Source: Bacteroidaceae bacterium
GTDB lineage: Bacteria > Bacteroidota > Bacteroidia > Bacteroidales > Bacteroidaceae
Assembly: GCA_017467885.1 (NCBI GenBank)
Contig: JAFUKC010000011.1
Location: 1 to 50,440, forward strand
Direction of reading: 5' to 3'
DNA: 50,440 nucleotides
The position numbers and the translations under genes are program-made. The notes beneath the pieces were generated by a model, which ran no database searches, was not told the DNA's origin, and saw nothing but the letters and a program-made list of their open reading frames with translations. Positions 24,953-50,440 of this stretch are shown here, one piece after another (within the stretch, counting starts at the first letter, position 1; the number at the start of each line of letters is the position of its first letter).

Positions 24953-25149
24953 AGAAGCTGTTTAAATTTCTAAAAAAAAGTTTTTATTATACCGGAAGCT
25001 GTTTAATTCGTTATCTCGTTGTTTTTTTATATTCAAAATGTCTGTTTCACCTTTTTGCGGTTACATAGCCCGCTTGCGCCCTTAAAAAAGAAGCAAGCAT
25101 CCTATTTTTGCTCTATAAAAACTAAACGATATAAATTTGAACAGCTTCT
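24953..25149 (+). repeat. Dispersed MITE-like repeat, copy A (197 bp)
   Basis: The left end is AGAAGCTGTTTAAATTTC; the right end, read inward on the other strand, is AGAAGCTGTTCAAATTTATA. The internal block TTTTTGCGGTTACATAGCCC (25053-25072) is shared with copy C on the same strand and with copies B and D on the other. The core hairpin has lost a few bases (CGCTTGCGCC instead of CGCTATGCGCC). A second left-type end, GGAAGCTGTTTAATTC, occurs inside near 24994, so this copy may be nested or rearranged. It lies between pheS and the RSH gene, which are divergent. No other gene is visible in 24938-25363. Confidence 0.85.
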
Positions 25150-25190
25150 TATGCAAAAACAAAATCGTCGCGAAGTTAATGAATTTAATG

Positions 25191-25198
25191 CAAAAATA
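25191..25198 (-). promoter_or_regulatory. Candidate -7 box for pheS
   Basis: Minus-strand TATTTTTG matches TAnnTTTG. If used, the pheS leader would be about 250 bases and would contain all of repeat copy A. Confidence 0.4.
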
Positions 25199-25363
25199 AT
25201 GTGAGTTATGTAATTAATTTGATAACATTATCTCATAGTGTTGTGATGTTTTTAAAAAAATAAAAGAAATTTGAATAAAATTATTTGTGTATTGAAAGAT
25301 TTTTAGCAAATTCGCACTTTCGCTTGATAGGCTGTATATAATATTGCTGTATTTTTTATTACT

Positions 25364-27235
25364 ATGGAATATAAGGAAATCGATTGCGGAGTGGAGGAGT
25401 TGCTCGAAACGTTGGCACGACGTTTGTCTGAAGAGGATGTTACACGTATAAAGGATGCATATCTCTTTGCAAAAGAGGCACATAAGGAACAACGGCGTAA
25501 ATCGGGTGAGCCCTATATAATGCATCCGCTGGCTGTTGCGCGCATTGTAGCCAACGAGTTGGGATTGGGAGCGAATCCTATTATTGCCGCTTTTCTGCAC
25601 GATGTAGCCGAAGATACACAATACACCATCGATGATATAAAACAGCGTTATGGCGATGACGTGGCATTTCTTGTAAATGTGGTAACAAAGAAGAAAAAGA
25701 AGCAGTATGAATCGTCGAAGCAGATAGATAATTATAAACAGATGCTTGCATCGTTGCACTACGATATTCGTGCTTTGCTTATCAAACTTGCCGACCGCCT
25801 GCATAATATGCGTACATTAAGCAGTATGCGTCCCGATAAGCAGATGAAGATTGCCGGCGAAACAGACTATTTTTATGCACCATTGGCGCATCGTTTGGGA
25901 TTATATCACATCAAGCGCGAGTTGGAGAATCTCTCTTTCCGTTATCGTTGTCCGCGTGAATATGCCCAATTGGAAGATGCCATTGCCGATGAACAGATGG
26001 AGAAGGTTACAGCGTTGCGTACATTTATGTCGAAGATAGAGCAGATGCTTGAGGAAAATGATATTATGCTTGCACGTACCGAGTTACAGTGCCGTGGCCC
26101 GTACAGTACGTGGAAAAAGATGCATGCATCGGGGTGTGATTTCAATCATGTTGAAGGTAAGTATTATATTCGTATCATATATCCTTACGGACACGACTAC
26201 TCCGAGAAGGATATGAGCCTTAAAATATATTCGTTGCTCACCGACCGCTTTAAAGAGAAACCGGGCAGTGTAGCCAACTTTATCGACTCACCAAAGGAGA
26301 ACGGCTACCAAAGCTTTCATGTGAAGCTGCTTACCGATGCCGGTACATGGGAGGAGATACACATATCATCGGAACGTATGGTGCGTAAATCGCAGTTCGG
26401 TTGTCTTTCGGAGCGCAATGATGGGAATATTGTAAATTGGATTGAAAAGTTCAAATTGTTGTTGCAAGATATTGCTTCACATGGAAAGGAGATGGAGTAC
26501 ATGGAAGGTGTAACCTCTTCGTTCTACAACGATGATATTATGGTGTTTACGCCGCAGGGTAAAGGTGTCATTTTGCCTAAAGATGCTTCGGCACTCGATT
26601 TTGCTTTCGAAATACATAGCAAATTGGGCGAACATGCACAATTCGCAAGGATAAACGGTATTTTATCTTCGGTAAAGACAATTCTGCATCGCGGTGATTG
26701 TGTCGAGATAGGTACAAATGAAAATGTTGTGCCTTCGGCCGATTGGCTTGAGCATGTATCTACTTATAAAGCAAAATCGCATCTGCATTCGATTCTGAAC
26801 AAACAGAAACAGTTGCAATATAAACGCTGTTCCACTTGTCATCCGCTACCGGGCGATGAGGTTATAGGCTTCCGTTCCGAGGATGGCTCTATAACATTGC
26901 ATCGTCGCGATTGTAAGTCGGCAATTCGTTTAGCCTCACAAAAGGGTGATGATATTGTTGCCGTAAACTTCGAGGAGGATATAGATTTTCTCTATCCGGC
27001 GAAGATAAGCATTACAGCCATCGACCGTTATCATCTTTTGAGCGATATTATAGATTGCATAACAAACCGTCTGCATCTTTCATTAAATCATATTATAACA
27101 GAAAGTATCGACCAGATTGTTACATGTACAATGGTTTTCTCAATCCATTCTTCGGCTGAATTACAAAAGGTTATTGCAGATATCTCCACCATCGATGGAG
27201 TAGACGAGGTCAAACAGCATGTAGATGTAGAATAA
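25364..27235 (+). CDS. RelA/SpoT homologue (RSH), hydrolase motifs intact, synthetase motifs divergent
   Basis: This 623-residue protein makes or breaks (p)ppGpp in its relatives. The HD hydrolase domain (about 25-200) keeps every key residue: YIMHP (H54), FLHDVAEDT (H79, D80) and KLADRLHNMRTL (D144). The synthetase-like region (about 230-345) is eroded. RGPYSTWKKM is followed by FNHVEGKYYIRI, where active enzymes have a FDxxxDLxAxR pattern, and WEEIHISSERM replaces the usual EIQIRT. NGYQSFHVKL is kept. TGS (about 390-450), a small C/H-containing segment (CSTCHPLPGD near 489) and an ACT-like tail (about 545-620) follow. At 623 residues it is about 100 shorter than typical Rel. It is probably a hydrolase-biased paralogue. 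Confidence 0.85.
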   Translation: MEYKEIDCGVEELLETLARRLSEEDVTRIKDAYLFAKEAHKEQRRKSGEPYIMHPLAVARIVANELGLGANPIIAAFLHDVAEDTQYTIDDIKQRYGDDVAFLVNVVTKKKKKQYESSKQIDNYKQMLASLHYDIRALLIKLADRLHNMRTLSSMRPDKQMKIAGETDYFYAPLAHRLGLYHIKRELENLSFRYRCPREYAQLEDAIADEQMEKVTALRTFMSKIEQMLEENDIMLARTELQCRGPYSTWKKMHASGCDFNHVEGKYYIRIIYPYGHDYSEKDMSLKIYSLLTDRFKEKPGSVANFIDSPKENGYQSFHVKLLTDAGTWEEIHISSERMVRKSQFGCLSERNDGNIVNWIEKFKLLLQDIASHGKEMEYMEGVTSSFYNDDIMVFTPQGKGVILPKDASALDFAFEIHSKLGEHAQFARINGILSSVKTILHRGDCVEIGTNENVVPSADWLEHVSTYKAKSHLHSILNKQKQLQYKRCSTCHPLPGDEVIGFRSEDGSITLHRRDCKSAIRLASQKGDDIVAVNFEEDIDFLYPAKISITAIDRYHLLSDIIDCITNRLHLSLNHIITESIDQIVTCTMVFSIHSSAELQKVIADISTIDGVDEVKQHVDVE

Positions 27236-27247
27236 TATCTCTCTAAA

Positions 27248-27288
27248 CAATAAAAAAAACAGATATTTGATATCTGTTTTTTTTATTG
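27248..27288. terminator. Bidirectional terminator between the RSH gene and clpC
   Basis: CAATAAAAAAAACAGATAT and ATATCTGTTTTTTTTATTG are perfect arms with a 3-base loop. T-tracts occur on both strands. It separates two convergent genes and abuts the clpC stop codon. Confidence 0.9.
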
Positions 27289-29814
27289 TTATTTTTCAAT
27301 ATCGAAGCGTAACTTCTCATCTCCTTCGCAATGTACGGTAATCTTGTCACCGGGTTGTAATTTGCCGTTAAGAAGCAATTCCGAAACCTCGTCTTCAATC
27401 AGATTCTGCAGGGCACGCTTAAGCGGGCGGGCACCAAACTGAACATCGTAACCTCTCTTTGCCAAAAGTTGCTTTGCTTCGTCGGTAAGTTTTATGCCAT
27501 ATCCCATTTCTTCTATGCGGCGTACAATGTGCTCCAGCTCCAAATCTACGATGTTTTTTATGGCATCGAGGGAAAGCTGGTCGAAATTTATTATTTCGTC
27601 TACTCGGTTAAGGAATTCGGGTGCAAAACGTTTGTGCAATGCTTTCTGTATTACGTCACGTGAGTATTGCTTGTTGTCCAAACGTTCTTCTTTTGTAAAT
27701 CCTACACCCAGTCCGAAGTCCTTCAGTTCGCGCGTACCAATGTTCGATGTCATTATTATTACCGTATTGCGGAAATCTACAGTGCGGCCATAGCTGTCGG
27801 TGAGGCGTCCTTCGTCCATCACCTGCAACAGCAGGTTGAATACATCGGTGTGTGCTTTCTCTATTTCGTCGAGCAATACTATGGAGTAGGGTCGACGACG
27901 CACACGTTCGGTAAGCTGTCCTCCCTCTTCGTAACCAACATAACCCGGAGGCGCACCTACAAGACGAGAAACGGTGAACTTTTCCATGTATTCACTCATG
28001 TCTACACGTATAAGAGCATCGGCCGAACCAAACATGAATTTTGCCAATTCCTTTGCAAGCAATGTCTTTCCAACCCCGGTGGGTCCCAGGAACATGAATG
28101 TTCCTATCGGCTTGTTGGGATTCTGCAGCCCGACACGACTGCGCTGTATAGCTTTTGTAAGTTTCTCGATGGCATTATCTTGTGCAATAACTTTACTAGT
28201 GAGTTCGCTCTTCATGTTTCTCAAGCGTGTCCATTCATCCTGTTGCATACGTTGCAGGGGAATACCCGATATCATTGCAACCACATTTGCAATATTCTCG
28301 GCGTCGACTATCTCACGTTTGTCACGCATACTTTCAAGCCAACTCTCTTTTTTGCTCTTGTAGAGTTCTTTCATTTGCTTTTCTTCGTCGCGATGTTTGG
28401 CTGCCAATTCAAAATTCTGTGCTTTTACGGCAGCCATCTTCTCTTCTTCCATGCGAGCAATGCTCTTTTCAAGTTCTTCAATCTCGGCAGGAACCTTTAT
28501 ATTGCTTATGTGCATACGTGCTCCGGCTTCATCGAGGGCATCTATAGCCTTGTCGGGGAAGCAACGGTCGGTTATATACCTGTCTGTCAATTTGACACAC
28601 GTTTCCAATGCTTCGTCGGTATATGTGACATTATGGTGCTCTTCGTATCGTTCTTTGATATTGTTCAATATTGCAAGAGTATCTTGTGGTGATGTGGGCT
28701 CTACAAGAACCTTTTGGAAACGACGCTCCAACGCTCCATCCTTTTCAATGCTTTTGCGATATTCGTCGAGCGTAGTTGCGCCGATGCATTGTATTTCACC
28801 ACGTGCCAATGCCGGTTTAAGAATGTTTGCAGCATCCATTGAACCGGGTGATGAACCGGCACCCACAATTGTGTGTAACTCGTCGATAAAGAGTATTATA
28901 TTGGGGCTTTTTTCGAGTTCGTTGAGTATCGAGCGCAGACGTTCCTCGAACTGGCCGCGATATTTCGTTCCGGCAACCACAGCTGCCATGTCGAGTGAAA
29001 TTATGCGTTTGTCGAACAGCATACGCGAAGTCTTACGCTCCACAATTCTTTGTGCAAGTCCCTCGACAATAGCCGATTTTCCAACTCCGGGTTCACCGAT
29101 AAGTACCGGGTTGTTCTTCTTCCTGCGGCTCAAAATTTGTGAGATACGTTCAATCTCCTTCTCACGGCCGACAACAGGGTCAAGACGCTTCTCTTTTGCC
29201 GCTTGCGTCATATCAATGCCGAAATTGTCGAGTACAGGTGTGTCGTTCGAGGGTTTGGCTTCGCGTGTGGCCGAATAAGATTGACGATTTCCCGGCGCAT
29301 CGCTATTGTTATGCATCATTTCTTCATCCTCGTCATCTTCATCGGTGAAACCGAATCCTCCTTTTATCTCTTTACTCTCGCCGTTTATGGCTTTAATGGC
29401 ATTTTGTACCTTGTCGTAAGTTACATCATTTTGCATAAGAATGTTTGATGCCACACTGCTTTCGTCACGAAGTATCCCTAAAAGGACATGTTCGGTGTTG
29501 GTGTTGCTTTTCAGGTTACGTGCTTCCAAGGCACTGAAACGCAACACCTTCGCTGTATTCATATTCATCTCTATGTTTTCGTTGCGAGGCTCATCGTTGC
29601 TTTCTGCAACTTTTATGCGTTCCTCGATTGTCTCCTTGATTTTTTCTGTATCCACCTTCAGATATTCCAATATCTGCTTTGCTATTCCATCTTCATTTCG
29701 CATTATACCAAGCAACAGGTGCTCGGGTGCGATACTGTTGCTGCGAAGACGGTATGCCTCTTCCTTGCTCTTTATCAATATTTCAGACATTTTTTGCGAA
29801 AATTCATTGTTCAT
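27289..29814 (-). CDS. clpC: ClpC-type AAA+ chaperone/unfoldase
   Basis: This 841-residue HSP100 protein unfolds proteins for ClpP or refolds aggregates. Two Clp N-repeats lie at about 1-145. The first AAA+ domain has GEPGVGKSAIVEGLAQR (Walker A) and IILFIDELHT (Walker B). A UVR-like coiled insertion (about 420-465, IARMEEEKMAAVKAQNFELA) marks ClpC rather than ClpA. The second AAA+ domain has GPTGVGKTLLAKELAKF and VLLDEIEKAH. I choose the ATG at 29814, not the one at 29832, because GAGGAGG sits about ten bases before it. An acidic, asparagine-containing linker (DEDDEDEEMMHNNSD) follows the N-domain. Its promoter is at 29865-29872. Confidence 0.95.
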   Translation of the reverse strand: MNNEFSQKMSEILIKSKEEAYRLRSNSIAPEHLLLGIMRNEDGIAKQILEYLKVDTEKIKETIEERIKVAESNDEPRNENIEMNMNTAKVLRFSALEARNLKSNTNTEHVLLGILRDESSVASNILMQNDVTYDKVQNAIKAINGESKEIKGGFGFTDEDDEDEEMMHNNSDAPGNRQSYSATREAKPSNDTPVLDNFGIDMTQAAKEKRLDPVVGREKEIERISQILSRRKKNNPVLIGEPGVGKSAIVEGLAQRIVERKTSRMLFDKRIISLDMAAVVAGTKYRGQFEERLRSILNELEKSPNIILFIDELHTIVGAGSSPGSMDAANILKPALARGEIQCIGATTLDEYRKSIEKDGALERRFQKVLVEPTSPQDTLAILNNIKERYEEHHNVTYTDEALETCVKLTDRYITDRCFPDKAIDALDEAGARMHISNIKVPAEIEELEKSIARMEEEKMAAVKAQNFELAAKHRDEEKQMKELYKSKKESWLESMRDKREIVDAENIANVVAMISGIPLQRMQQDEWTRLRNMKSELTSKVIAQDNAIEKLTKAIQRSRVGLQNPNKPIGTFMFLGPTGVGKTLLAKELAKFMFGSADALIRVDMSEYMEKFTVSRLVGAPPGYVGYEEGGQLTERVRRRPYSIVLLDEIEKAHTDVFNLLLQVMDEGRLTDSYGRTVDFRNTVIIMTSNIGTRELKDFGLGVGFTKEERLDNKQYSRDVIQKALHKRFAPEFLNRVDEIINFDQLSLDAIKNIVDLELEHIVRRIEEMGYGIKLTDEAKQLLAKRGYDVQFGARPLKRALQNLIEDEVSELLLNGKLQPGDKITVHCEGDEKLRFDIEK

Positions 29815-29823
29815 ATCTTCTTT

Positions 29824-29830
29824 CCTCCTC
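29824..29830 (-). promoter_or_regulatory. Strong Shine-Dalgarno site of clpC
   Basis: Minus-strand GAGGAGG lies 9 bases upstream of the ATG at 29814. Such a strong site is rare in this window, where most genes have weak ones. It decides the start codon. Confidence 0.75.
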
Positions 29831-29864
29831 AATCAATTCTTTTTTGAATATTCGTTTCGGGTTG

Positions 29865-29872
29865 CAAAAATA
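29865..29872 (-). promoter_or_regulatory. -7 promoter box for clpC
   Basis: Minus-strand TATTTTTG matches TAnnTTTG, about 50 bases before the clpC ATG. Repeat copy B lies upstream of it, outside the transcript. Confidence 0.5.
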
Positions 29873-29989
29873 CAATCCTTGTCGTTCTGCTCGTAATTTA
29901 TTTACATAATATTCCTAACAAAAACCATGCCAAAGTATTAAAAATACATAACACAATTTCTATCCATGGCTGTTTTTCTGTTTTCATTT

Positions 29990-30150
29990 AGAAGTTGTTT
30001 AAATTTATATCCTTGAAATTTTTATAGGTCTTTTTTAGTATGTTTTTTCATTTTTCAAAGGCGCATAGCGGGCTATGTAACTGCAAAAAAGGCAAGCATA
30101 ACTCGCGTATAATGTAAACATAATATTAGAAAGAAATTTAAACAGCTTCT
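29990..30150 (-). repeat. Dispersed MITE-like repeat, copy B (161 bp)
   Basis: The left end is AGAAGTTGTTTAAATTTATA; the right end, read inward, is AGAAGCTGTTTAAATTTCTT. It is in the opposite orientation to copies A and C. Inside are CCTTGAAATTTTTATAGGTC and the hairpin CATAGCGGGCTATG (30064-30077). It is the shortest complete copy: about 30 bases present in copies C and D after the core are missing. It lies between the divergent genes clpC and aspS. Apart from this and the promoters, nothing else is visible in 29833-30355. Confidence 0.88.
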
Positions 30151-30237
30151 AAGACGCGTCTGAATATAAAACGTTTATTCGGGAACTATATTTTAAACAA
30201 TTCATATATTAACAGTGGTTATTCCCTTTTTTTTGCT

Positions 30238-30245
30238 TAATTTTG
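30238..30245 (+). promoter_or_regulatory. -7 promoter box for aspS
   Basis: TAATTTTG matches TAnnTTTG. The leader to the ATG at 30356 is about 105 bases. Repeat copy B lies upstream, outside the transcript. Confidence 0.6.
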
Positions 30246-30355
30246 CAGTTGCTGTGAAAGATTGGTTGCAATCACTGTAATATTGAAGTTTTATATATTA
30301 AGTTTGTTTGTACAGTTTTTCCGGCTTCCAAGAATAAAACCGAAAATATAATACA

Positions 30356-32119
30356 ATGTATCGTACAAAAACCTGTGGCGAGCTGCGTATCGCCGATGTA
30401 GAGAAAAACGTTACACTTTGCGGATGGGTGCAACGTGCCCGTAAAATGGGTGGTATGACATTCGTTGATGTGCGTGACCGTTACGGTGTTACGCAGCTTG
30501 TGTTCAGTGAGGATGTAAATGCCGAATTATGCGAGAAAGCTTCGCACCTCGGTCGTGAATATGTTATTCAGGCAACAGGTGTTGTGCGTGAGCGTCAGAG
30601 CAAGAACGCCAATATTCCTACGGGTGATATTGAGATTATCGTGGATTCATTGAATATCCTTAATGTGGCAGATACACCTCCTTTTACGATAGAGAACAAT
30701 ACCGATGGTGGTGATGATTTACGCATGAAATACCGTTACCTCGATTTGCGTCGTGAGGCTGTACGCAAAAACCTCGAGATTCGGCACCAAATGACAATGG
30801 AGGTACGTCGCTATCTCGATTCTTTGGGTTTCATCGAAGTGGAGACACCTATGCTTATTGGTTCTACTCCCGAGGGTGCTCGCGATTTTGTGGTACCTTC
30901 GCGTATGAATCCCGGGCAGTTCTATGCTCTTCCGCAAAGCCCGCAGTTGTTCAAACAGTTGCTTATGGTTTCCGGTTTCGACCGTTATTTCCAGATAGTG
31001 AAATGTTTCCGCGATGAGGATTTGCGTGCCGACCGTCAGCCCGAATTTACTCAAATAGACTGTGAAATGAGTTTTGTCGAGCAGGAGGATGTGATAACAA
31101 TATTCGAAGGCATGGCAAAGCATCTCTTCAAGACCATAAGAGGGGTAGAACTGAACGAGGCTTTCCCACGTATGACATGGCACGATGCTATGAAATACTA
31201 CGGTAGCGACAAACCAGATACTCGTTTCGAGATGAAGTTTGTAGAGTTGATGGATATTATGAAAGGGCATGGTTTTGGTGTATTTGACAGTGCCGAATAT
31301 ATCGGTGGTATATGTGCAAAAGGTGCTGCTGTATATACACGCAAACAACTCGATGCGCTTACCGATTTTGTACGTCGTCCGCAGATTGGTGCAAAGGGTA
31401 TGGTATATGCACGTGTGGAGGCTGATGGAACTGTTAAATCGAGTGTAGACAAATTCTACTCGCAGGATGTTCTTCAGCAGATGAAAGCTGCTTTCGGTGC
31501 CGAGCCCGGTGATTTGATACTTATCTTAAGCGGTGATGATACAATGAAGACACGTAAACAGTTGTGTGAATTACGTCTTGAGGTTGCCGGGCAGCTTGGC
31601 TTGCGCGACAAAAACAAGTTCTCGTGTCTTTGGGTTGTTGATTTCCCGCTTTTCGAGTATAGCGAAGAGGAAGGACGCTATATGGCAATGCATCATCCTT
31701 TTACCTCTCCGAAACCCGAGGATGTACCTTTGCTCGATACAGACATGGGTGCTGTTCGTGCAAATGCTTACGACATGGTTATCAACGGTGTAGAGGTTGG
31801 TGGCGGCTCTATACGTATCTTTGACAGTGAATTGCAGAACAAGATGTTTAAATTGTTGGGCTTTACTCCCGAACGTGCACAGCAACAGTTCGGGTGGTTG
31901 CTTGATGCGTTCAAATACGGTGCTCCTCCTCATGGCGGCTTGGCTTATGGACTCGATCGTTGGGTGAGTCTTTTTGCCGGTCTTGACAGTATTCGCGACT
32001 GTATCGCATTCCCGAAGAATAACTCGGGTCGTGATACCATGATAGATGCTCCTGCAGCTTTGGAGCAGGCACAACTCGATGAGTTGAATATTGCTTTGGA
32101 TTTAAAAGATAAGAAATAA
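30356..32119 (+). CDS. aspS: Aspartate--tRNA ligase
   Basis: This 587-residue class IIb synthetase charges tRNA-Asp. The OB-fold anticodon-binding domain is at about 1-110 ([26 protein letters not shown]). The catalytic core includes the flipping-loop region [20 protein letters not shown]. Motif 2 is [19 protein letters not shown], and motif 3 is [16 protein letters not shown] near the C-terminus. The bacterial GAD insertion lies between them (about 290-410). Length is normal. A 56-codon membrane protein gene follows after 7 bases and is probably cotranscribed. Confidence 0.97.
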
Positions 32120-32126
32120 CTCAATT

Positions 32127-32297
32127 ATGGGCAATAAAATTGCGAAACATCAGGTTCCGGGCCAAAAGAAGCGTAAACGCAATGCTGAAAAACATCGTCG
32201 GCAATTGATGAAGAATATTGCAATAATAGTTGTAGCAATAGTTTTTCTACTGTTTATGTTAGCAGCCTTCCTGCATCCTCCAATAGAGGTCAGATAA
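32127..32297 (+). CDS. 56-residue single-pass membrane microprotein
   Basis: The frame begins ATGGGCAATAAAATTGCG, 7 bases after the aspS stop. Residues about 1-30 are strongly basic (KKRKRNAEKHRRQ). A hydrophobic helix follows at about 31-49 (IAIIVVAIVFLLFMLAAFL), then a short tail ending PPIEVR. By the positive-inside rule the basic N-terminus should be cytoplasmic. Its stop codon lies within the left base of the terminator stem (32294-32349), which supports a gene ending exactly there. I do not recognise the family; a conserved small protein linked to aspS in Bacteroidales is plausible. Confidence 0.7.
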   Translation: MGNKIAKHQVPGQKKRKRNAEKHRRQLMKNIAIIVVAIVFLLFMLAAFLHPPIEVR

Positions 32298-32349
32298 AAA
32301 GAAATTGGGTTGTCCTGAAAGTTTAACGGACAACCCAATTTCTTTTTAT
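32294..32349. terminator. Bidirectional terminator after aspS and the microprotein gene
   Basis: ATAAAAAGAAATTGGGTTGTCC pairs perfectly over 22 bases with its partner ending in TCTTTTTAT at 32349. A- and T-tracts lie on both flanks, between convergent genes. Confidence 0.92.
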
Positions 32350-32375
32350 CTTTTACAATAAATATGGCTGATATA

Positions 32376-32786
32376 TTACCAAAACCATCCTCGCTTTTTC
32401 TTGGGTAACTCCTCGCCATTTTCCGAATAGATATCGGCCCACGTCTTTTTACTATTTATCATTTCATATATGCGTCCCCAATCGGGCAAGCCACCCAGGT
32501 TTTTGTCGTCGATAAAAAGGTCGGCATCTATTTTGCAATAGCCTCCCTCGCTATCTACATTCTCTTCGGGGAAATTCTTGTTTACAGCATAAAATTCCAC
32601 ACCACGTTCTCTGCACCAATCGACTGCTTCTTGCAATAGCGGGCCTTTACGTACGGTCCACAGTATAAGGCGATGGCGTTCGTTTGTTAACATCTTTAAG
32701 GTGGTTGTAGCAAATGGAATTTCTTTACCAATCTCGGGGTATCGGTGTTCCACAACCGTTCCGTCAAAGTCAATAGCAATTATCAT
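32376..32786 (-). CDS. BT0820-like HAD superfamily phosphatase
   Basis: This 136-residue HAD protein has the nucleophile motif IAIDFDGTVVEHRYPEIG (about D6 and D8), motif II in RLILWTVRKG, and the acidic motif IV in DLFIDDKNLGGLPDWG. This matches the small family I know from the Bacteroides protein BT0820, a putative phosphatase. It lacks a large cap domain, which suits larger substrates. The basic, aromatic C-terminus (KKKRGWFW) is unusual. Substrate unknown. Confidence 0.82.
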   Translation of the reverse strand: MIIAIDFDGTVVEHRYPEIGKEIPFATTTLKMLTNERHRLILWTVRKGPLLQEAVDWCRERGVEFYAVNKNFPEENVDSEGGYCKIDADLFIDDKNLGGLPDWGRIYEMINSKKTWADIYSENGEELPKKKRGWFW

Positions 32787-32814
32787 ATTAATTGTGTTTT
32801 TGTTTCATCTTTTG

Positions 32815-32822
32815 CGAAGATA
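32815..32822 (-). promoter_or_regulatory. Near-consensus -7 box for the BT0820-like gene
   Basis: Minus-strand TATCTTCG differs by one base from TAnnTTTG and sits 28 bases before the ATG at 32786. Confidence 0.4.
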
Positions 32823-32954
32823 ATGATTTATTTTTAATTTACAAGATAATCTTGTAATGTCGTTATATTGTAGTTTTTCTGTATTTGTTGTTTGTTTTTA
32901 TCTATACGGTTTTCTGTTGATTTCGAGAGTTCTTGTTTTATATCGTCAGGATGC

Positions 32955-33602: not shown

Positions 33603-33627
33603 AGTTGGTTTTATTTCTCCATTTATG

Positions 33628-33635
33628 CAAATGTA
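33628..33635 (-). promoter_or_regulatory. -7 promoter box for nth
   Basis: Minus-strand TACATTTG matches TAnnTTTG, 25 bases upstream of the chosen ATG at 33602. Confidence 0.55.
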
Positions 33636-33759: not shown

Positions 33760-33766
33760 CGGTGCT

Positions 33767-41079: not shown

Positions 41080-41088
41080 TACTGTGTT

Positions 41089-42509: not shown

Positions 42510-42667
42510 CTCGTATTTAAAAAATGGCTTTTTAACGATTTAATATTCCTATTTGTGCTTTTTGTTTCGCGATTTCTTGCCTATTTCATTATTTATAAAT
42601 ATATTTGCAATATAACTAATCAGTTATAATAATATAGTTTTTTCTTAGTTGTTTAGTAAATGTGGGG

Positions 42668-42701
42668 CAGTTGCTTTGTGAAAAGCGACTGTCTTTTTTT
42701 T
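42668..42701 (+). terminator. Rho-independent terminator downstream of the MFS gene
   Basis: CAGTTGCTTT pairs with AAAGCGACTG (one G-U) around a short loop and is followed by TCTTTTTTTT. It lies 159 bases after the MFS stop. Confidence 0.8.
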
Positions 42702-42796
42702 GTGGTTTTATTTGTAAATTAAGATTTTTATCTCTTCTCTATTTTAAATTATCGGTGGCTCACTGTGATTCTGACAGTGCTGAGGGTTTGAAATTG

Positions 42797-42881
42797 CTTT
42801 TGCTATAATGGTTGCCAATGGTTCTGCATAATGCATTGCCAATGGTAATTCTATTACTTTTGCTATGCGCTGTGCAGAACC
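42797..42881. repeat. Repeat-rich noncoding segment with inverted and direct repeats
   Basis: GGTTCTGCA (42820-42828) and TGCAGAACC (42873-42881) are inverted. TTGCCAATGGT occurs twice (starting near 42812 and 42837), and CTTTTGCTAT occurs twice at the edges. A small CACTGTGATTCTGACAGTG hairpin lies just before. The minus strand holds a 41-codon ATG frame made largely of the same repeats. It may be a structured RNA or a decayed repeat. The rest of 42510-43280 holds a terminator, repeat copy C and a promoter. Confidence 0.45.
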
Positions 42882-42931
42882 GCATCAAACAGTTATACTA
42901 AAAACCAAAAAGGTTTCGTATTGATAAATTT

Positions 42932-43121
42932 AGAAGCTGTTTGAATTTCTTTCGAAAAAGTTTATTATATTATCCGCGAGTTGTGCTTGCCTTTTTATGT
43001 TCTTTTTTGCCTGTTTTTCCCTTTTTGCGGTTACATAGCCCGCTATGCGCCCTTAAAACATGAAAAAACATTCTAAAAAAGACCTATAAAAATTTCAAGG
43101 ACATAAATTCAAACAACTTCT
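42932..43121 (+). repeat. Dispersed MITE-like repeat, copy C (190 bp)
   Basis: The left end is AGAAGCTGTTTGAATTTCTT; the right end, read inward, is AGAAGTTGTTTGAATTTATG. The internal block TTTTTGCGGTTACATAGCCC (43022-43041) is followed by GCTATGCGCCCTT, giving an intact CATAGC-CC-GCTATG hairpin. It is the most complete copy and the reverse complement of copy D over the shared part. An extra end-like TAAACAGTTTCTA follows directly (43122-43134). It sits upstream of the V-ATPase promoter (43159-43166), outside the transcript. Confidence 0.9.
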
Positions 43122-43158
43122 TAAACAGTTTCTAAAAATAACAGTATTTTGTATAATT

Positions 43159-43166
43159 TATCTTTG
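43159..43166 (+). promoter_or_regulatory. -7 promoter box for the V-ATPase operon
   Basis: TATCTTTG matches TAnnTTTG. The leader to the ATG at 43281 is about 110 bases. Confidence 0.6.
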
Positions 43167-43280
43167 TTTTAGTTTACCGATACGATAAAAATGGTTACTT
43201 TTGTATTCATTTTTTTAATACATAAAAACATAAAAGAAAAAAGGGGCAACCTTAAATTGGAAATTTTAATTAATCTATAT

Positions 43281-43868
43281 ATGGAAAATAAAATTCAGGA
43301 ATTAACCGAAAAAATCTACAACGAAGGTGTTGAAAAAGGTAATGCCGAGGCTGAACGTATTATTGCCGAAGCACGCAAAGAGGCTGCTGTGATTGTTAAG
43401 GAGGCACAGGTACAAGCCGACGCTCTTGTTGCCAATGCACAGAAAAGCGCTGATGACCTTATGGCAAACACCCGTTCCGAACTTAAATTGTACGGAGCAC
43501 AGGCTGTGGGTGCCCTTAAATCGGAGACGGCATCACTTGTTACCGATGCCATTGTGAAGGCAGCCGTTAAAGAGGCCTTGAGTGGTGATGCTCTCAAAAA
43601 TATAGTATTGAAAATTGCCGAGCGTTGGAGTGCCAATGAGGCATTGGTTATTTCAACCTCTGAGGCTGATGAACTTAAAGCCTATTTTGCAGCAAAAGCC
43701 AAAGCTTTGCTCGATAAAGGTGTAGAGATTAAAGAGGTTAACGGAGTGAAAGCATCCTTCTCAATTGCTCCCACCGATGGTTCCTATAAGGTGAATTTCG
43801 GAGAGGCCGAGTTCGAAGCATTCTTGAAATCTTTCCTTCGTCCCCAAATGGTAGAACTTTTATTCTGA
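43281..43868 (+). CDS. V-type ATPase subunit E (peripheral stalk)
   Basis: This 195-residue protein has a long charged N-terminal coiled coil (about 1-75, QELTEKIYNEGVEKGNAEAE and AEARKEAAVIVKEAQVQADA), then a globular C-terminal domain ending LRPQMVELLF. That is the layout of V/A-ATPase subunit E, which links the catalytic head to subunit I. I choose the ATG at 43281 (MENKIQELTEK), because the longer frame adds a hydrophobic leader unlike the family. It is the first gene of the operon. No partner stalk subunit G/H gene precedes it. Confidence 0.88.
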   Translation: MENKIQELTEKIYNEGVEKGNAEAERIIAEARKEAAVIVKEAQVQADALVANAQKSADDLMANTRSELKLYGAQAVGALKSETASLVTDAIVKAAVKEALSGDALKNIVLKIAERWSANEALVISTSEADELKAYFAAKAKALLDKGVEIKEVNGVKASFSIAPTDGSYKVNFGEAEFEAFLKSFLRPQMVELLF

Positions 43869-43874
43869 TAACAG

Positions 43875-44702
43875 ATGAGCGACTACTATTGCCTGGTTGC
43901 AGGATTGCCCGATGTGGCTTTCGATGGCGGTAAGTTGAATTTTTCCATTGAAAATTTCAAGGAGGAGATTTACCCTGCATTGTCATCTGACGATGCACGT
44001 AAAATAGATCTCTTCTTTCTCGCGTGGGACAACAAGAATTTGTTGACCGTTCTGCGTCGTGGTGCCGAAGCTCCGTTGCAACGTACAGGTTGTTACACTC
44101 GCGAACAACTTGTGGAGTTGGTTACATCGGCTAGCGAAGGCGACCCTCGTCGCGATGGTGTTCCGTCGTATTTGTACGATTTTATGGAATACTATTTCGA
44201 GAACGAAACACGCGAAGATTTCATTTGGGAGGATTTGCTTTCGGCTCATTATTATGCATACGCAATGGCTACATCCAACAAATTCCTTTCGGAGTGGTTC
44301 ACGTTTAACCTTAACGTGAACAATCTGTTGGTTGCATTGCTTGCCCGTAAATATAAATTGAACGTATCTGATTGTGTAATAGGTGATAACGAGATTGCCG
44401 AGTCGATACGCACCTCGGGCGCAAGAGATTTTGGGCTCGGTGGTACGATAGAATACCTCGAAACAGTTGTGCGCCTTAGCGAGAACGAAAAATTGCAAGA
44501 GCGCGAACACGCCCTCGACGAGTTACGTTGGAATTGGCTCGAGGATAATTCGGTGTTCAATTATTTTACTGTTGAAAAACTGTTTGTGTTCTTGCAAAAA
44601 TTGGATATAATTGAGCGTTGGGCAATACTCGACGCCGAGACAGGTATGCAAAAATACAACGAACTTATCAATGCTTTAAAAGGGGGAATGATTACCGCCT
44701 GA
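43875..44702 (+). CDS. V-type ATPase-associated DUF2764 protein (subunit X)
   Basis: This 275-residue cytosolic protein begins MSDYYCLVAGLPDVAFDGGK, as DUF2764 proteins do, and lies between E and A as in other Bacteroidetes V-ATPase operons. It is rich in acidic and aromatic residues and mostly helical, for example EYYFENETREDFIWEDLLSA and DELRWNWLEDNSVFNYFTVE. No subunit C or F gene is seen before A. A stand-in role for subunit C, the socket between rotor ring and shaft, has been supposed from position and fold, but is not proven. Confidence 0.82.
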   Translation: MSDYYCLVAGLPDVAFDGGKLNFSIENFKEEIYPALSSDDARKIDLFFLAWDNKNLLTVLRRGAEAPLQRTGCYTREQLVELVTSASEGDPRRDGVPSYLYDFMEYYFENETREDFIWEDLLSAHYYAYAMATSNKFLSEWFTFNLNVNNLLVALLARKYKLNVSDCVIGDNEIAESIRTSGARDFGLGGTIEYLETVVRLSENEKLQEREHALDELRWNWLEDNSVFNYFTVEKLFVFLQKLDIIERWAILDAETGMQKYNELINALKGGMITA

Positions 44703-44738
44703 ATGCTTTAACGATAAAAAAGAAATAAAATATATAAT

Positions 44739-46496
44739 ATGGCAACAAAAGGAAAAGTAACCGGTATTATAGCGAATATGGTGTTGCTGGCTGTCGATGG
44801 CCCTGTGGCACAAAATGAAATATGCTATATTAAAACCGGCGGCGACCGTTTAATGGCCGAGGTCATTAAAATTAACGGAGCCAAGGTGTACGTTCAGGTG
44901 TTTGAGAGCACACGACGTCTAAAGATAGGCGAAGAGGCTGAGTTTACCGGGCACATGCTCGAGGTTTCTCTTGCGCCGGGTATGCTCTCGAAGAACTACG
45001 ACGGTCTGCAGAACGATTTGGATAAGATGGAAGGTGTCTTCCTAAAGCGTGGTGATTACACCAATCCGCTCGATGAAGAACGTTTGTGGAAGTTCGAACC
45101 CCTTGTAAAAGCAGGTGACAAGGTTGGTGCAGCCGCATGGCTCGGTAGTGTAGAGGAGAACCACCAACCGCTTAAGATTATGGCGCCTTTTGCTTTGGAG
45201 GGTGAATGGACTGTAAAATCAATTGCAACAGCAGGAGAGTATCGCATCACCGATACAATAGCAGTAATTGTAAGCGCCGATGGCGAGGAAAAATCACTCA
45301 ATATGATTCAGAAATGGCCTGTACGTGTGGCTATGGAGGATTATAAAGAGAAACCGCGTCCCTTTAAACTTCTCGAAACAGGTGTTCGTACAATCGACAC
45401 ACTAAACCCTATTGTAGAGGGCGGTACCGGATTTATCCCCGGCCCCTTCGGTACAGGTAAAACCGTGTTGCAGCATGCAATCTCGAAGCAGGCCGAAGCC
45501 GACATCGTTATTATAGCAGCGTGCGGTGAGCGCGCCAACGAGGTTGTGGAAATCTTTACCGAGTTCCCCGAACTTATCGACCCACATACGGGACGTAAGC
45601 TTATGGAACGTACAATCATCATCGCAAACACCTCGAACATGCCGGTTGCAGCTCGCGAGGCTTCGGTATATACAGCCATGACAATTGCCGAGTATTATCG
45701 TGCAATGGGCTTGAGAGTATTGCTTATGGCCGATTCAACATCACGTTGGGCGCAGGCTTTGCGCGAGATGTCGAACCGTATGGAGGAGTTACCCGGCCCC
45801 GATGCCTTCCCTATGGATATTTCGGTTATCATTGCAAACTTCTACAGTCGTGCAGGTTATGTTGTGCTGAACAACGACAAGGTGGGTTCAATTACATTCA
45901 TCGGTACGGTATCGCCCGCCGGTGGTAACCTCAAAGAGCCTGTAACAGAGAATACTAAAAAGGTTGCACGCTGTTTCTATGCTTTGGAGCAGGACCGTGC
46001 CGACAAGAAACGTTATCCCGCTGTTAACCCCATCGATTCATATTCCAAATATATCGAGTACCCCGAGTTCGACGAATATATAAGCAGTCGTATCGGCGAG
46101 GGATGGCTCGACATGGTAAACGAAGCCAAAACACGTTTGTTGCGCGGTAAAGAGATTGCCGAGCAGATAAACATTCTTGGTGATGACGGTGTACCCGTAG
46201 AATACCACGTGACATTCTGGAAATCGGAGCTTATCGATTTTGTTGTATTGCAGCAGGATGCTTTCGATGATATCGACTCTGTTACTCCCCTTGAGCGTCA
46301 GCAAGCTCTGCTCGAGATGGTAACCGATATTTGTCGTTCCGATTTCAATTTTGATAGTTTCCTCGAGGTAACCGATTTCTTCAAGAAGGTTATCAACCTT
46401 TGCAAGCAGATGAACTACTCCGAGTTTAAATCGGAAAAGTTCGAAGGATATTACAATCAGCTGCAGAAGTTGTTGGCAACAAAAAAGAGTGTTTAA
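44739..46496 (+). CDS. ntpA: V-type ATPase catalytic subunit A
   Basis: This 585-residue catalytic subunit has the P-loop GPFGTGKTVLQHAISKQAE (about residue 234), the catalytic glutamate region ACGERANEVVEIFTEFPEL, and the subunit-A-specific insertion between about 110 and 200. LMADSTSRWAQALREMSNRM and GRKLMERTIIIANTSNMPVA are typical. It hydrolyses or makes ATP in the peripheral V1 head. Length is normal for bacterial V/A-type A subunits. The ion (H+ or Na+) cannot be told without subunit K, which is beyond the window. Confidence 0.96.
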   Translation: MATKGKVTGIIANMVLLAVDGPVAQNEICYIKTGGDRLMAEVIKINGAKVYVQVFESTRRLKIGEEAEFTGHMLEVSLAPGMLSKNYDGLQNDLDKMEGVFLKRGDYTNPLDEERLWKFEPLVKAGDKVGAAAWLGSVEENHQPLKIMAPFALEGEWTVKSIATAGEYRITDTIAVIVSADGEEKSLNMIQKWPVRVAMEDYKEKPRPFKLLETGVRTIDTLNPIVEGGTGFIPGPFGTGKTVLQHAISKQAEADIVIIAACGERANEVVEIFTEFPELIDPHTGRKLMERTIIIANTSNMPVAAREASVYTAMTIAEYYRAMGLRVLLMADSTSRWAQALREMSNRMEELPGPDAFPMDISVIIANFYSRAGYVVLNNDKVGSITFIGTVSPAGGNLKEPVTENTKKVARCFYALEQDRADKKRYPAVNPIDSYSKYIEYPEFDEYISSRIGEGWLDMVNEAKTRLLRGKEIAEQINILGDDGVPVEYHVTFWKSELIDFVVLQQDAFDDIDSVTPLERQQALLEMVTDICRSDFNFDSFLEVTDFFKKVINLCKQMNYSEFKSEKFEGYYNQLQKLLATKKSV

Positions 46497-46516
46497 CATT
46501 TTAAGTGAGTAAAATT

Positions 46517-47851
46517 ATGGCTACTGAAGCATTTCAGAAAATATATACGAAGATAAACTCCATCACCAAGGCAACATGCTCGCTTAAGGCAACCGGTGTT
46601 GGATATGACGAGTTGGCCACAGTAAACGGCAAACTTGCACAGGTTGTAAAAATTATGGGCGACGAGGTTACCTTGCAGGTGTTTGAAGGAACCGGAGGTA
46701 TCCCCACAAACGCCGAGGTTGTTTTTATGGGTAAGGCTCCATCGCTTAAAGTTAGCGAACAACTTACAGGCCGTTTCTTCAATGCTTATGGCGACCCTAT
46801 CGATGGAGGTCCTGCAATTGAAGGCCGGGAGGTTGAGATTGGTGGCCCTTCGGTGAATCCTGTTCGTCGTAAACAGCCTTCGGAACTTATTGCCACCGGT
46901 ATTGCCGGTATCGACCTTAACAATACGCTGGTTACCGGCCAGAAGATTCCTTTCTTCGCCGACCCGGACCAACCCTACAACCAGGTTATGGCAAACGTTG
47001 CCATGCGTGCCGAGACCGATAAGATTATTCTTGGCGGTATGGGTATGACCAACGACGACTACCTCTATTTTAAGAATCTGTTCTCCAACGCAGGTGCACT
47101 CGACCGCATCATCTGTTTTATGAACACAACCGAGGACCCCGCTGTTGAGCGTCTTCTTATTCCTGATATGGCACTTACCGCTGCCGAATATTTTGCTGTC
47201 GAGAAGAACCAAAAGGTTCTTGTGTTGCTCACCGACATGACAATGTATGCCGATGCGCTTTCGATTGTGTCGAACCGTATGGACCAGATTCCCTCGAAGG
47301 ATTCAATGCCCGGTTCGCTTTATTCCGATTTGGCAAAAATCTACGAGAAAGCGGTACAGTTCCCCGCAGGAGGTTCAATCACCATTATTGCGGTTACAAC
47401 GCTTTCGGGTGGCGACATCACACATGCTGTTCCCGATAATACAGGTTATATTACCGAAGGCCAGCTCTTCTTGCGTCGCGACAGCGATATCGGTAAAGTT
47501 ATCGTCGACCCATTCCGTTCACTTTCGCGTCTTAAACAGCTTGTTGCCGGTAAAAAGACACGTAAGGACCATCCGCAGGTGATGAATGCAGCCGTTCGTC
47601 TTTATGCCGATGCGGCAAATGCAAAAACAAAACTCGAGAATGGTTTCGACCTTACCGATTACGATAAGCGTACATTGTCGTTTGCAAAGGATTATTCCGA
47701 TAAGTTACTTGCAATAGATGTGAACCTTAATACCACCGAGATGCTCGATGTGACATGGGGTCTCTTCTCGAAATATTTCAAACCCGAAGAGGTTAACATC
47801 CGTCAGGAGCTTGTAGATACATATTGGATAAACAAAGAGGTTGAAGCATAA
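46517..47851 (+). CDS. ntpB: V-type ATPase regulatory subunit B
   Basis: This 444-residue non-catalytic nucleotide-site subunit alternates with A in the head. MATEAFQKIYTKINSITKAT is the usual start, so I choose ATG 46517 over the upstream GTG at 46505. It has PFFADPDQPYNQVMANVAMR at the degenerate P-loop position, FMNTTEDPAVERLLIPDMAL, and SIVSNRMDQIPSKDSMPGSL. It lacks a canonical Walker A, as expected. Its stop overlaps the start of subunit D by one base (TAATG). Confidence 0.95.
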   Translation: MATEAFQKIYTKINSITKATCSLKATGVGYDELATVNGKLAQVVKIMGDEVTLQVFEGTGGIPTNAEVVFMGKAPSLKVSEQLTGRFFNAYGDPIDGGPAIEGREVEIGGPSVNPVRRKQPSELIATGIAGIDLNNTLVTGQKIPFFADPDQPYNQVMANVAMRAETDKIILGGMGMTNDDYLYFKNLFSNAGALDRIICFMNTTEDPAVERLLIPDMALTAAEYFAVEKNQKVLVLLTDMTMYADALSIVSNRMDQIPSKDSMPGSLYSDLAKIYEKAVQFPAGGSITIIAVTTLSGGDITHAVPDNTGYITEGQLFLRRDSDIGKVIVDPFRSLSRLKQLVAGKKTRKDHPQVMNAAVRLYADAANAKTKLENGFDLTDYDKRTLSFAKDYSDKLLAIDVNLNTTEMLDVTWGLFSKYFKPEEVNIRQELVDTYWINKEVEA

Positions 47852-48453
47852 TGATTGCATTTCAATATAATAAAACATCGCTTCAGCAACTCGAAAAGCA
47901 GCTGAAGGTACGTTTAAGAACCCTTCCTATCATTAAGAATAAGGAGAGTGCATTGCGTGTCGAGGTGAAGAGGTGCAAAGCCGAAATGGCTCTGCACGAT
48001 AAAGAGTATGCCGATATGCTGGAGCAGTACAGGGCACTTTTTGCACTGTGGAACGAGTTCGATGCATCGCTTGTGAAGACCGGTAACCTCTCCATCGGCC
48101 GTCAGAAGGTTGCAGGTGTGCAGGTTCCTGTTTTGGAACGCGCCGATTTCATTGTGGCACCTTACAGCATGTTTAATTCGCCAAAGTGGTTTGCCGATGG
48201 AATAGAACTTCTTAAACAGATGGCAATGACGGCAATACGTCGCGAATTGCTTAACCGTAAACTGCAACTGCTGGAAACTGCACGAAAAAAGACCACCCAA
48301 AAGGTGAATCTTTTCGAGAAGGTACAGATTCCCGGTTATCAAGATGCTATTCGTAAGATTAAACGTTTTATGGAGGACGAAGAGAATCTCTCGAAATCGT
48401 CGCAGAAGATTCTCAAATCGTTGCTCGAACAAAGAGAGGAGGTTGTGGCATGA
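47851..48453 (+). CDS. ntpD: V-type ATPase subunit D (central shaft)
   Basis: This 200-residue protein forms the central rotor shaft. It begins with a basic coiled coil (YNKTSLQQLEKQLKVRLRTL) and ends in a long helix (ALEFLRREL-like RRELLNRKLQLLETARKKTT). A loop region around residues 85-105 (TGNLSIGRQKVAGVQVPVLE) matches the family. It overlaps the B gene by one base and the I gene by four (ATGA), so translation is coupled through the set. Confidence 0.9.
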   Translation: MIAFQYNKTSLQQLEKQLKVRLRTLPIIKNKESALRVEVKRCKAEMALHDKEYADMLEQYRALFALWNEFDASLVKTGNLSIGRQKVAGVQVPVLERADFIVAPYSMFNSPKWFADGIELLKQMAMTAIRRELLNRKLQLLETARKKTTQKVNLFEKVQIPGYQDAIRKIKRFMEDEENLSKSSQKILKSLLEQREEVVA

Positions 48454-50288
48454 TAAGTAAGATGAATAAATTGACAATGCTTGTGTATCACAAGGACTAT
48501 CGCGATTTCCTCGTAAAGTTGCGTGATGCCGGTGTTGTACATGTTTCAGAACGCAAGAGCGGTGTTGCTGAAACGCCCGAATTGCAGGATATGTTGCAAC
48601 TCTCGAACAGATATCTGCGTATAATTAAAAACGTGGAGCGTTTCTTGCCCGAGAAACCACAGCTTGCAGCGGCTGTAACCGACAAAGCACCTGCCGCACT
48701 CGATAAGGCCGAAACAATGTTCACCGAAATAGAACGTCTTAAACAACAGTTGCAGCTTATTGAAAAAGACATAACTTCGTTGGCTATATGGGGCGATTTC
48801 GATTACACGCTTATCGAAAAACTCTCCAATGCCGGTTATGCGATAAATTTCTTCCAGACAACTGTAAAAGGTTTTAACCCCGAGTGGAGTAATCTCTACA
48901 ATGCTATCATCGTAAACCAAACGGGCTCTAAATTGTGCTTTGTAACGGTTACACATACCGATGTTGTTGTGGATATTGATGCAGAAACTGCAAAATTACC
49001 GTCAGCCTCGCTGTCGGGTCTTAAAGCAGAAGCCGATTCAACCAAGGCTGCCATCGCAACCATTGAAGAGAATCTTCGAACATTTGCAGTTGCCGACATC
49101 GAAACGTTGCGTGCCGGTCATGCAAGCCTGCAACAGAATATGGAGTTCTCGAAGGTTATGCTTAATGGCGAAAAGGTCTCGGGCGATAAATTGCTGTTGC
49201 TCGAAGGTTGGGTGCCCGAGCAAGAGAAAGAGTCGCTTGTGCAGATGCTCGATGGCGAATCGCTGTTCTACGAACTCGACCGCCCGCAGCCCGGTGACGA
49301 CGTACCCATCCGTTTCAACAACAACGGTTTCTTCCGTCTTTTCGAGCCTATTTGCGAGCTTTATATGCTCCCCAAATACAATGAATTGGATCTTACTCCC
49401 TTCTTTGCACCGTTCTATATGATATTTTTCGGTCTTTGTTTGGGAGACATGGGCTACGGCCTTGTAATGTCGTTGGTTTCAATAGCATTGCTTGCAGGTA
49501 AAAAGGTTAGCGGTTCAATGAAAGGGTATGTGAATCTTGTACTTACCCTTGGTCTTTCGACCATGCTCTGCGGTTCTCTCACCGGAACATTCTTTGGCTT
49601 TAATCTTTATGAGTGGAATATTCCGCTTCTCGATTGGTGGCGCGACCATGTTTCATTCTCGGCAATGAACCCCGAAACAGGAAAGCTTAACGATCCCAAC
49701 CCCATGCTCTTCAACCTATCGTTGATATTGGGTGGCATACAGATATTCTACGGTATGATAATAAAGGTGGTGAATATCACCATTCAGACCGGTTTCAAAT
49801 ATGCACTCTCTACATTGGGCTGGCTCATAATACTGTTTACTGCCGTAGTTTCAATGCTTGTACCTTCGATACCTGTTACCGTAACCTATGTGCTTTATGG
49901 TATAGGTGCTGTAGGGGTGTTCCTGCTGAACTCGCCGGGACAGAATCCGATTCTTAACATCGGTCTTGGCTTGTGGGATACATACAACATGGTTACAGGT
50001 CTGCTTGGCGATATTCTTTCTTATGTCAGGTTGTTTGCCCTTGGTCTTTCGGGTGGAATTCTTGCAATGGTTTTCAACAGCCTTGCAACAGGTATGAGCC
50101 CCGATAATGCTATACTCGGTCCTGTAGTTACGGTTCTTATATTCGTTATAGGACATTTTATAAATATGTTCATGAATGTGCTGGGAGCATTGGTACACCC
50201 CATGCGTCTTACCTTTGTTGAGTTTTTCAAAAACTCGGGCTACGAGGGAGGTGGAAAGGCCTACAAGCCGTTCAAACAGACTATTTGA
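48450..50288 (+). CDS. ntpI: V-type ATPase membrane subunit I (stator)
   Basis: This 612-residue subunit a/I has a soluble N-terminal half (about 1-310) with coiled coils and the opening MNKLTMLVYHKDYRDFLVKL. A membrane half from about 330 has about seven helices. FFAPFYMIFFGLCLGDMGYG and LLGDILSYVRLFALGLSGGI, which carries the essential arginine, are the hallmarks. It forms the ion half-channels against the K ring. The window ends 152 bases after its stop, where subunit K is expected, but repeat copy D begins 12 bases downstream. Confidence 0.95.
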   Translation: MISKMNKLTMLVYHKDYRDFLVKLRDAGVVHVSERKSGVAETPELQDMLQLSNRYLRIIKNVERFLPEKPQLAAAVTDKAPAALDKAETMFTEIERLKQQLQLIEKDITSLAIWGDFDYTLIEKLSNAGYAINFFQTTVKGFNPEWSNLYNAIIVNQTGSKLCFVTVTHTDVVVDIDAETAKLPSASLSGLKAEADSTKAAIATIEENLRTFAVADIETLRAGHASLQQNMEFSKVMLNGEKVSGDKLLLLEGWVPEQEKESLVQMLDGESLFYELDRPQPGDDVPIRFNNNGFFRLFEPICELYMLPKYNELDLTPFFAPFYMIFFGLCLGDMGYGLVMSLVSIALLAGKKVSGSMKGYVNLVLTLGLSTMLCGSLTGTFFGFNLYEWNIPLLDWWRDHVSFSAMNPETGKLNDPNPMLFNLSLILGGIQIFYGMIIKVVNITIQTGFKYALSTLGWLIILFTAVVSMLVPSIPVTVTYVLYGIGAVGVFLLNSPGQNPILNIGLGLWDTYNMVTGLLGDILSYVRLFALGLSGGILAMVFNSLATGMSPDNAILGPVVTVLIFVIGHFINMFMNVLGALVHPMRLTFVEFFKNSGYEGGGKAYKPFKQTI

Positions 50289-50299
50289 TAAAGAAAATA

Positions 50300-50440
50300 A
50301 GAAGTTGTTTGAATTTATGTCCTTGAAATTTTTATAGGTCTTTTTTAGAATGTTTTTTCATTTTTTAAGGGCGCATAGCGGGCTATGTAACCGCAAAAAA
50401 GGGAAAAACAGGCAAAAAAGAACATAAAAAGGCAAGCACA
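50300..50440 (-). repeat. Dispersed MITE-like repeat, copy D (cut by window end)
   Basis: The left end is AGAAGTTGTTTGAATTTATG. After it come CCTTGAAATTTTTATAGGTC and the hairpin CATAGCGGGCTATG (50373-50386). The visible 141 bases match the reverse complement of copy C closely, including the stretch ending GGCAAGCACA. It starts 12 bases after the subunit I stop and is therefore probably inside the V-ATPase transcript, before the expected K gene. The other end is outside the window. Confidence 0.88.

Follow-up and report, generated by a model that had tools for sequence, protein, structure and literature searches.

Bacterial miniature inverted-repeat transposable elements (MITEs) are usually regarded as decayed remnants of a single insertion sequence (IS), local in distribution and with an interior of no importance, and repetitive extragenic palindromic (REP) sequences are palindromes of 20-40 bp with a GTAG-type tag. 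MITEs with folding transcripts are already known from the cited accounts (PMC10969869, PMC2229807). Among these, the Correia/NEMIS elements of Neisseria are described as mobile, about 155 bp long and equipped with terminal inverted repeats (TIRs), TA termini and transcripts that fold (PMC2229807, PMC10969869), and ERIC/IRU/RU-1 is described as a mobile imperfect palindrome of 127 bp with a 7-bp TIR, TA termini, a folding transcript and a known effect for which the strand matters (PMC2229807). The CIR repeats of Caulobacter and Brucella, as the same source presents them, join two arms by a linker, carry a GANTC motif and occur in two alphaproteobacterial genera (PMC2229807), and the high-copy hupL MITE of Ca. 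Thiomargarita nelsonii has, according to its authors, no parent in ISfinder, 10-bp direct repeats and homologs inside YhgA/PD-(D/E)XK genes (PMC4853749). Here we analyse four dispersed repeats, copies A to D, in a 50,440-nt stretch of a Bacteroidaceae bacterium (contig JAFUKC010000011.1; hereafter the window). These repeats are MITEs, and the best-conserved part of their interior, a 22-nt core at the tip of a long hairpin, recurs at the corresponding structural position of at least four hairpin types, spread over Bacteroidota, Bacillota, Pseudomonadota and SAR324.

Mobility of the window repeats

The four repeats lie between genes where a first-pass annotation of the window had placed them, their exact ends now being refined (GAAG as the first bases of the element, CTTC as the last). 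As that annotation reported, they occur in both orientations and share inverted ends, here GAAGYTGTTTRAATTT over element lengths of 159-195 bp. Neither a transposase nor a long open reading frame (ORF) was found inside them. Copy A (24954-25148, 195 bp, Bacteroidales subfamily 2) and copy C (42933-43120, 188 bp, full length) lie on the minus strand, and copy B (29991-30149, 159 bp, with a shortened interior) and copy D (50301-50440, ended by the contig end) on the plus strand. The annotation saw no clear target duplication longer than 3 bases, which holds as to length; a 3-bp TNA duplication is nevertheless present, with TTA on both sides of A (24951-24953 and 25149-25151) and of C (42930-42932 and 43121-43123), the non-identical TTA and TAA around B, and the left TAA (50298-50300) alone visible for D.

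Further copies were found in the assembly and the genus, and the similarity is not limited to AT-rich ends. Copy C has at least 27 matches in its own assembly (1.44 Mb, 63% complete), a minimum because 11 of the 27 touch a contig end, and the element is matched in 37 of 44 genomes of the genus, its own included. Identical 3-mers flank 35 of the 49 Bacteroidales elements with both ends (21 TAA, 14 TTA), and TNA stands on both sides in 43 of them.

This observation is further strengthened by empty sites. The joined flanks of copy A match 42 of the 44 genus genomes, its own included; 29 other loci were fetched, and in the 25 with adjacent pheS and spoT, a comparison between species at this one site, the element is absent throughout (25/25). 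The gap between the two genes measures 203-313 bp in these loci and 426 bp in the window's own genome, where it holds the 195-bp element, and the alignment of genome G019 spans the insertion junction. No spoT start was found in the remaining 4 of 29 loci, one of which reaches its end after 386 bp; G039, among these four, carries an element elsewhere, downstream of pheS.

With a length below 500 bp, paired TIRs, no transposase gene, a duplication of fixed length and both filled and empty sites, the repeats share these features of bacterial MITEs, and the MITE reading offered by the annotation holds: they are non-autonomous DNA transposons. The other identity it offered, REP or bacterial interspersed mosaic element (BIME), is not supported, in view of their length, TIRs and duplications, and of the core strand, which shows no preference relative to flanking genes (tandem 21 versus 19 and 17 versus 14). 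Nearly all examined copies are intergenic (five cases are spanned by an ORF), and 2 of 53 Bacteroidales copies lie between converging genes.

A core shared by hairpins of distant bacteria

The conserved internal hairpin to which the annotation had drawn attention was borne out and became our main finding. Its core, GGCGCATAGC-NN-GCTATGTAAC, is complete in copies B (30060-30081, plus strand, GGCGCATAGCGGGCTATGTAAC), C (43030-43051, minus strand) and D (50370-50391, plus strand), and is one base short in the CTATG arm of copy A (25060-25080, minus strand). An exact search with 19 fixed bases (GTTACATAGC-NN-GCTATG-N-GCC) of a collection of 84,980 species returned at least 115 stretches, where chance would give about 2 over both strands of 257 Gb. 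The 80 matches listed belong to Bacteroidales (22), Ca. Venteria (14), other Gammaproteobacteria (13), SAR324 (2) and Clostridia with their relatives (29). Within the stretches are 120 core instances, 112 of them with at least 40 nt on either side; here the pairs spanning the core had a median of 46.5, shuffled flanks giving 15.3 on average, and the core-tipped hairpin exceeded all 19 of its own shuffles in 88 of the 112. A threshold of at least 20 spanning pairs, passed by 103 of 112, was dropped as uninformative because one of ten shuffles also reached 20 in 110 of 112 cases.

The conservation of the core is not merely a product of the search, because it also appears in 42 Bacteroidales copies picked independently of the core: conservation there is 0.961 in the core, 0.950 in the TIRs and 0.822 in the rest, the core is the most conserved 22-column stretch of the element, and a paired exchange inside it occurs in 2 of the 42. 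One Lachnospiraceae genome, sampled through TIR pairs alone, gave 20 stretches, of which 13 were full-length members of this family, 11 with CATAG-4-CTATG and 2 with one arm base changed; the others comprised 3 internal deletions, 3 end stumps of 47-50 bp and 1 different interior.

The core is borne by at least four types of hairpin. Type 1, found in Clostridia, gammaproteobacteria and SAR324, has GGA ends and TNA duplications (identical 3-mers in 65 of 75, TNA on both sides in 69 of 75) and is 156 bp long in 34 of 75 copies and 158 bp in 19. Type 2, from Methylomicrobium, has ATACTTCGCG ends and measures 161 bp in 5 of the 7 pairs found; masking the core leaves a match between its interior and type 1 in 9 of 10 copies (14.5-35.2 bits; the remaining copy scores 7.3, and the best of 400 random sequences 10.2), so that one interior stands under two kinds of ends. 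Type 3, from Clostridia, has GAGCGTGTTTGAAAA ends, is mostly 160 bp long, flanked by TA at either end in 8 of 13, and shows no sequence match beyond the core. Type 4 is the Bacteroidales type of the window, the subfamilies of which swap a whole helix, T-run for A-run, with pairing preserved.

Applied to the window copies, the type 1 sequence profile gives 15-31 bits, and none above random with the core masked. Copies C and D score 52 bits by the type 1 covariance model against 27-31 by the sequence profile, so structure adds signal. Built from 43 other-host copies only, this model ranks D, C, B and A as the window's four best matches (E-values 1.1e-8, 1.2e-8, 1.1e-5 and 0.0018; the next 1.1), with the core contributing a large share of the signal. 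A simple one-family reading is weakened, since Bacteroidales homology outside the masked core went undetected; our claim is that similar structures share the core at a corresponding position, common descent of the whole elements not being proven.

Several variants accompany these types. Three stumps in G044 (L202, L205 and L206; 47-50 bp) consist of the two terminal repeats and a few bases between TTA or TAA on both sides, and are apparently core-less derivatives. L200 of the same genome has these terminal repeats and TAA on both sides around an unrelated interior without the core, and may be a further passenger of the mobiliser acting on the G044 elements. The smallest core-bearing form seen, a 58-bp element (L152, 5216-5273), has ends almost abutting the core and TTA on both sides. 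Five Methylococcaceae loci (L063, L110, L142, L147, L164) have in one arm a common insert, CCTACATGGATGTAGG...GGAGCGGAAGC, with roughly the same position in each, and several Venteria copies have another insert near the core.

Searches elsewhere were negative within their scope. IMG/VR held no exact core match, a weak absence because a reversed control was also unmatched. Plasmids did not match copy C or two other copies, phages did not match one Clostridia copy, and E. coli genomes (20,395 records) did not match one gammaproteobacterial copy. Rfam at gathering score found nothing on the window and nothing on an element in 16 loci, and further comparisons gave weak, chance-level matches only; a Clostridiales-1 RNA (131 bits) lies in L088 at 726-887, about 300 bp from an element. 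The matches listed among open-licence PMC papers included no description of the element or the core.

Preferential folding of one strand

In 43 type 1 copies, 34 of 47 predicted pairs vary on both sides with pairing retained, and the GGCGCATAGC strand folds better than its complement in 73 of 73 type 1 and 55 of 57 Bacteroidales copies (128/130 overall), counts that are not independent trials, the copies being related. The mean advantage of this strand is 15.9 kcal/mol for type 1 and 9.5 kcal/mol for Bacteroidales. In pair columns picked strand-blind, G.U outnumbers A.C (115 against 79 and 98 against 41; counted per column, 23 against 14 and 23 against 11). A plain palindrome should show no strand preference; the one seen here is consistent with selection acting on RNA or single-stranded DNA, the predicted folds being compatible with both. 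A coding interior, considered because frames run open through the core in some copies, was rejected because the third codon positions of the core hardly vary and the 19 overlapping ORFs of at least 120 aa have no common end.

A probable link to IS5-family transposases

The search for a transposase with the same termini led to one genome of the genus (G033), in which, at locus L239, a TTA and then the exact 16-nt TIR stand some 100 bp ahead of a transposase ORF that matches DUF4096 (1.8e-25) and DDE_Tnp_1. DDE_Tnp_1 occurs in 17 of the 44 genus genomes, at 29 places, and sequences related to the L239 IS, many of them fragmentary, in 31 of 251 family genomes and 10 of 30 genera. Five family IS that were measured are intact, 853-899 bp long and flanked by TNA on both sides (identical 3-mers in 4 of 5), and their ends are identical to the element TIR at 12-14 of 16 positions. 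TNA is also the target duplication of the IS1031 group of the IS5 family. Because of the exact TIR in L239 and the near-identical ends of the five family IS, the ends of the element are IS5-family ends. The copies themselves are not pieces of this parental IS, since the 16-nt end alone matches. Given the TIRs, the TNA duplications, the many copies, the empty sites and an IS5-family IS with the exact end, we assign the window repeats to the IS5-type MITEs. The annotation had recognised no named family; the parental IS family can now be named, and the element itself is still without an Rfam family. By its termini, an IS5-family (DUF4096 plus DDE) transposase probably moves the element in trans in this genus.

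By genome, the covariance model counted at least 150 copies in G048 (Venteria), 99 in G044, 75 in G047, 47 in G049, 32 in G050, 28 in G045 and 12 in G046, compared with 19 in the window's own assembly, 11 in G003 and 2 in G019; G035, G284 and G191 gave none. As candidate parents, DDE_Tnp_1 loci of five other-host genomes were rejected, no element-type TIR pair being among the matches listed, and the DDE_Tnp_1 locus L173 was dropped for having one TIR-like end only. DDE_Tnp_1_2 and DDE_Tnp_4 were absent from all 13 genomes searched, no convincing autonomous element emerged when 1.05 Mb of loci were scanned for TIR pairs separated by at most 4 kb, and for 100 ORFs next to 62 loci none of the 25 families that each library listed as best represented was a transposase. 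Either another family would move the copies of the other hosts, or the helper is missing from the assemblies.

Genomic setting of the four copies

Pfam places copy A between pheS-like and relA/spoT-like genes, copy B between Clp ATPase and class II tRNA synthetase genes, and copy C between an MFS transporter gene and a gene with a sub-threshold DivIVA match only; the V-ATPase subunit I gene beside copy D ends 12 bp before the element. Allowing 3 mismatches at most, the window contains the end motif GAAGYTGTTTRAATTT 13 times; 100 shuffles contained it 4.1 times on average and never more than 11 times. Copy A contains a partial internal terminal repeat, GAAGCTGTTTAATTCG, at 24995-25010. At 3833-3894, a TIR-like sequence, TAAACTGTTTGAATTTATA, forms a perfect inverted repeat of 27 nt around an 8-nt loop; it has no interior and is perhaps an element stump or a terminator.

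Discussion

The reading that we favour, at a probability of roughly two in three, is that of a MITE mobilised in trans by an IS5-type transposase, with an interior kept foldable on one strand and the core as a putative recognition site. An IS5-family transposase recognising the same TIR would move the element within the genus. The interior is more than a spacer, forming a long imperfect hairpin with the core at its apex, and its foldable strand would act as a folded single-stranded nucleic acid, probably RNA. The core could be the site of a common bacterial factor, perhaps an RNA-binding protein of the host or a transposition factor of wide occurrence, these last two steps being the less certain ones; hairpins that bear it would spread or persist better. 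A recognised core would explain why, across several phyla, the same core sits on hairpins whose ends differ and whose stems are unrelated.

Several results weigh against this reading. The window's own assembly, 63% complete, has no match to DDE_Tnp_1, DDE_Tnp_1_2, DDE_Tnp_4 or DUF4096, copy-rich G003 has none to DUF4096, and the L239 IS is truncated, with its right end not visible. The 30 bases inside the TIR show no significant likeness between IS and element (p 0.17 and 0.34), and G284 and G191 carry the IS yet no element by the covariance model. All seven copy-rich other-host genomes also lack DUF4096, so a general role of IS5 as mobiliser is not established. With the core masked, type 4 has no sequence link to the other types, and the relatedness of the copies limits the strand and covariation counts.

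Foremost among the alternatives, a possibility to which we give a minor share of belief, is that a single ancestral structured MITE crossed phyla, its stems and TIRs diverging and the core being kept as a mere tip, without an outside factor. In its favour, 156 bp is the commonest length of type 1 in Clostridia as well as in gammaproteobacteria, the Methylomicrobium type has the type 1 interior under other ends, and the other-host covariance model raises C and D well above the sequence profile. The Bacteroidales and the second Clostridia types, however, have no sequence link beyond the core, which is yet nearly exact, and a mere tip should allow many paired exchanges, of which the core has few.

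Movement through RNA, in which the transcript itself would be mobile and a reverse transcriptase or an enzyme like it would use the core as its handle, as with short interspersed nuclear elements (SINEs), would account for the one strand kept foldable and for copy-rich genomes of other hosts without a DDE parent in the families searched. We consider it improbable in view of the precise TIRs, the TNA duplication and, within the genus, an IS5-family IS bearing the same end. That the core is a double-stranded site for a recombinase or other protein, like the dif site of XerCD, is more doubtful still: the core strand resembles the arms of dif but the spacing is unlike that of dif, a base-pair exchange occurs inside the core in two copies, one strand is favoured, and dozens of active sites per chromosome would presumably be harmful. 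Immobile intergenic palindromes of the terminator or REP/BIME kind, which would likewise lie between genes and give folding transcripts, are the least credible reading in the face of target duplications, empty sites, no gene-strand preference and the rarity of Bacteroidales copies between converging genes.

Taking the MITE with a recognised core as the preferred account, a bolder version can be drawn by analogy. Eukaryotic SINEs borrow another system's handle, and the 22-nt folded motif might similarly be a universal handle of bacterial mobile hairpins, bound as RNA or single-stranded DNA by a conserved factor; we offer this tentatively and think it rather unlikely. The presence of the core on different mobile hairpins of distant bacteria hints at a common bacterial recogniser of the tip. 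Should the core prove to be a recognition site, a factor common in bacteria is still to be found; if descent alone explains it, then a very old or very mobile structured element lies outside Rfam. In this element the best-conserved part lies in the interior and is the one that recurs, and some hosts maintain 75 to at least 150 copies yet have no DUF4096 transposase.

Comparison with the described systems places the element among known forms in part. REP/BIME sequences differ from the window elements, which are 159-195 bp long with TIRs and a duplication. The hupL MITE, compared by its published description only, is likewise a high-copy MITE without a known parent, in a relative of Ca. Venteria, but differs in its 10-bp direct repeats and in homologs within YhgA/PD-(D/E)XK genes. 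CIR repeats, as described, resemble the element in an RNA structure and exposed motif conserved between genera, and differ in their linker-joined arms, GANTC motif and occurrence in two alphaproteobacterial genera. ERIC/IRU/RU-1 shares, according to its source, the imperfect palindrome, mobility, folding transcript and strand dependence; its 127 bp, 7-bp TIR and TA termini set it apart, as does the lack of a match to the gammaproteobacterial core-bearing copy in the 20,395 E. coli records. Correia/NEMIS, likened here by description only, agrees in size, TIRs, folding transcripts and mobility and differs in its TA termini and its description for Neisseria, with no cross-phylum core reported in the accounts cited. 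Closest are the IS5-family MITEs, which the element resembles in TIR sequence, TNA duplication, size, intergenic scatter and want of its own transposase, and from which it departs in a conserved, structured interior that is not IS-derived and in a core that recurs under other TIRs in other phyla.

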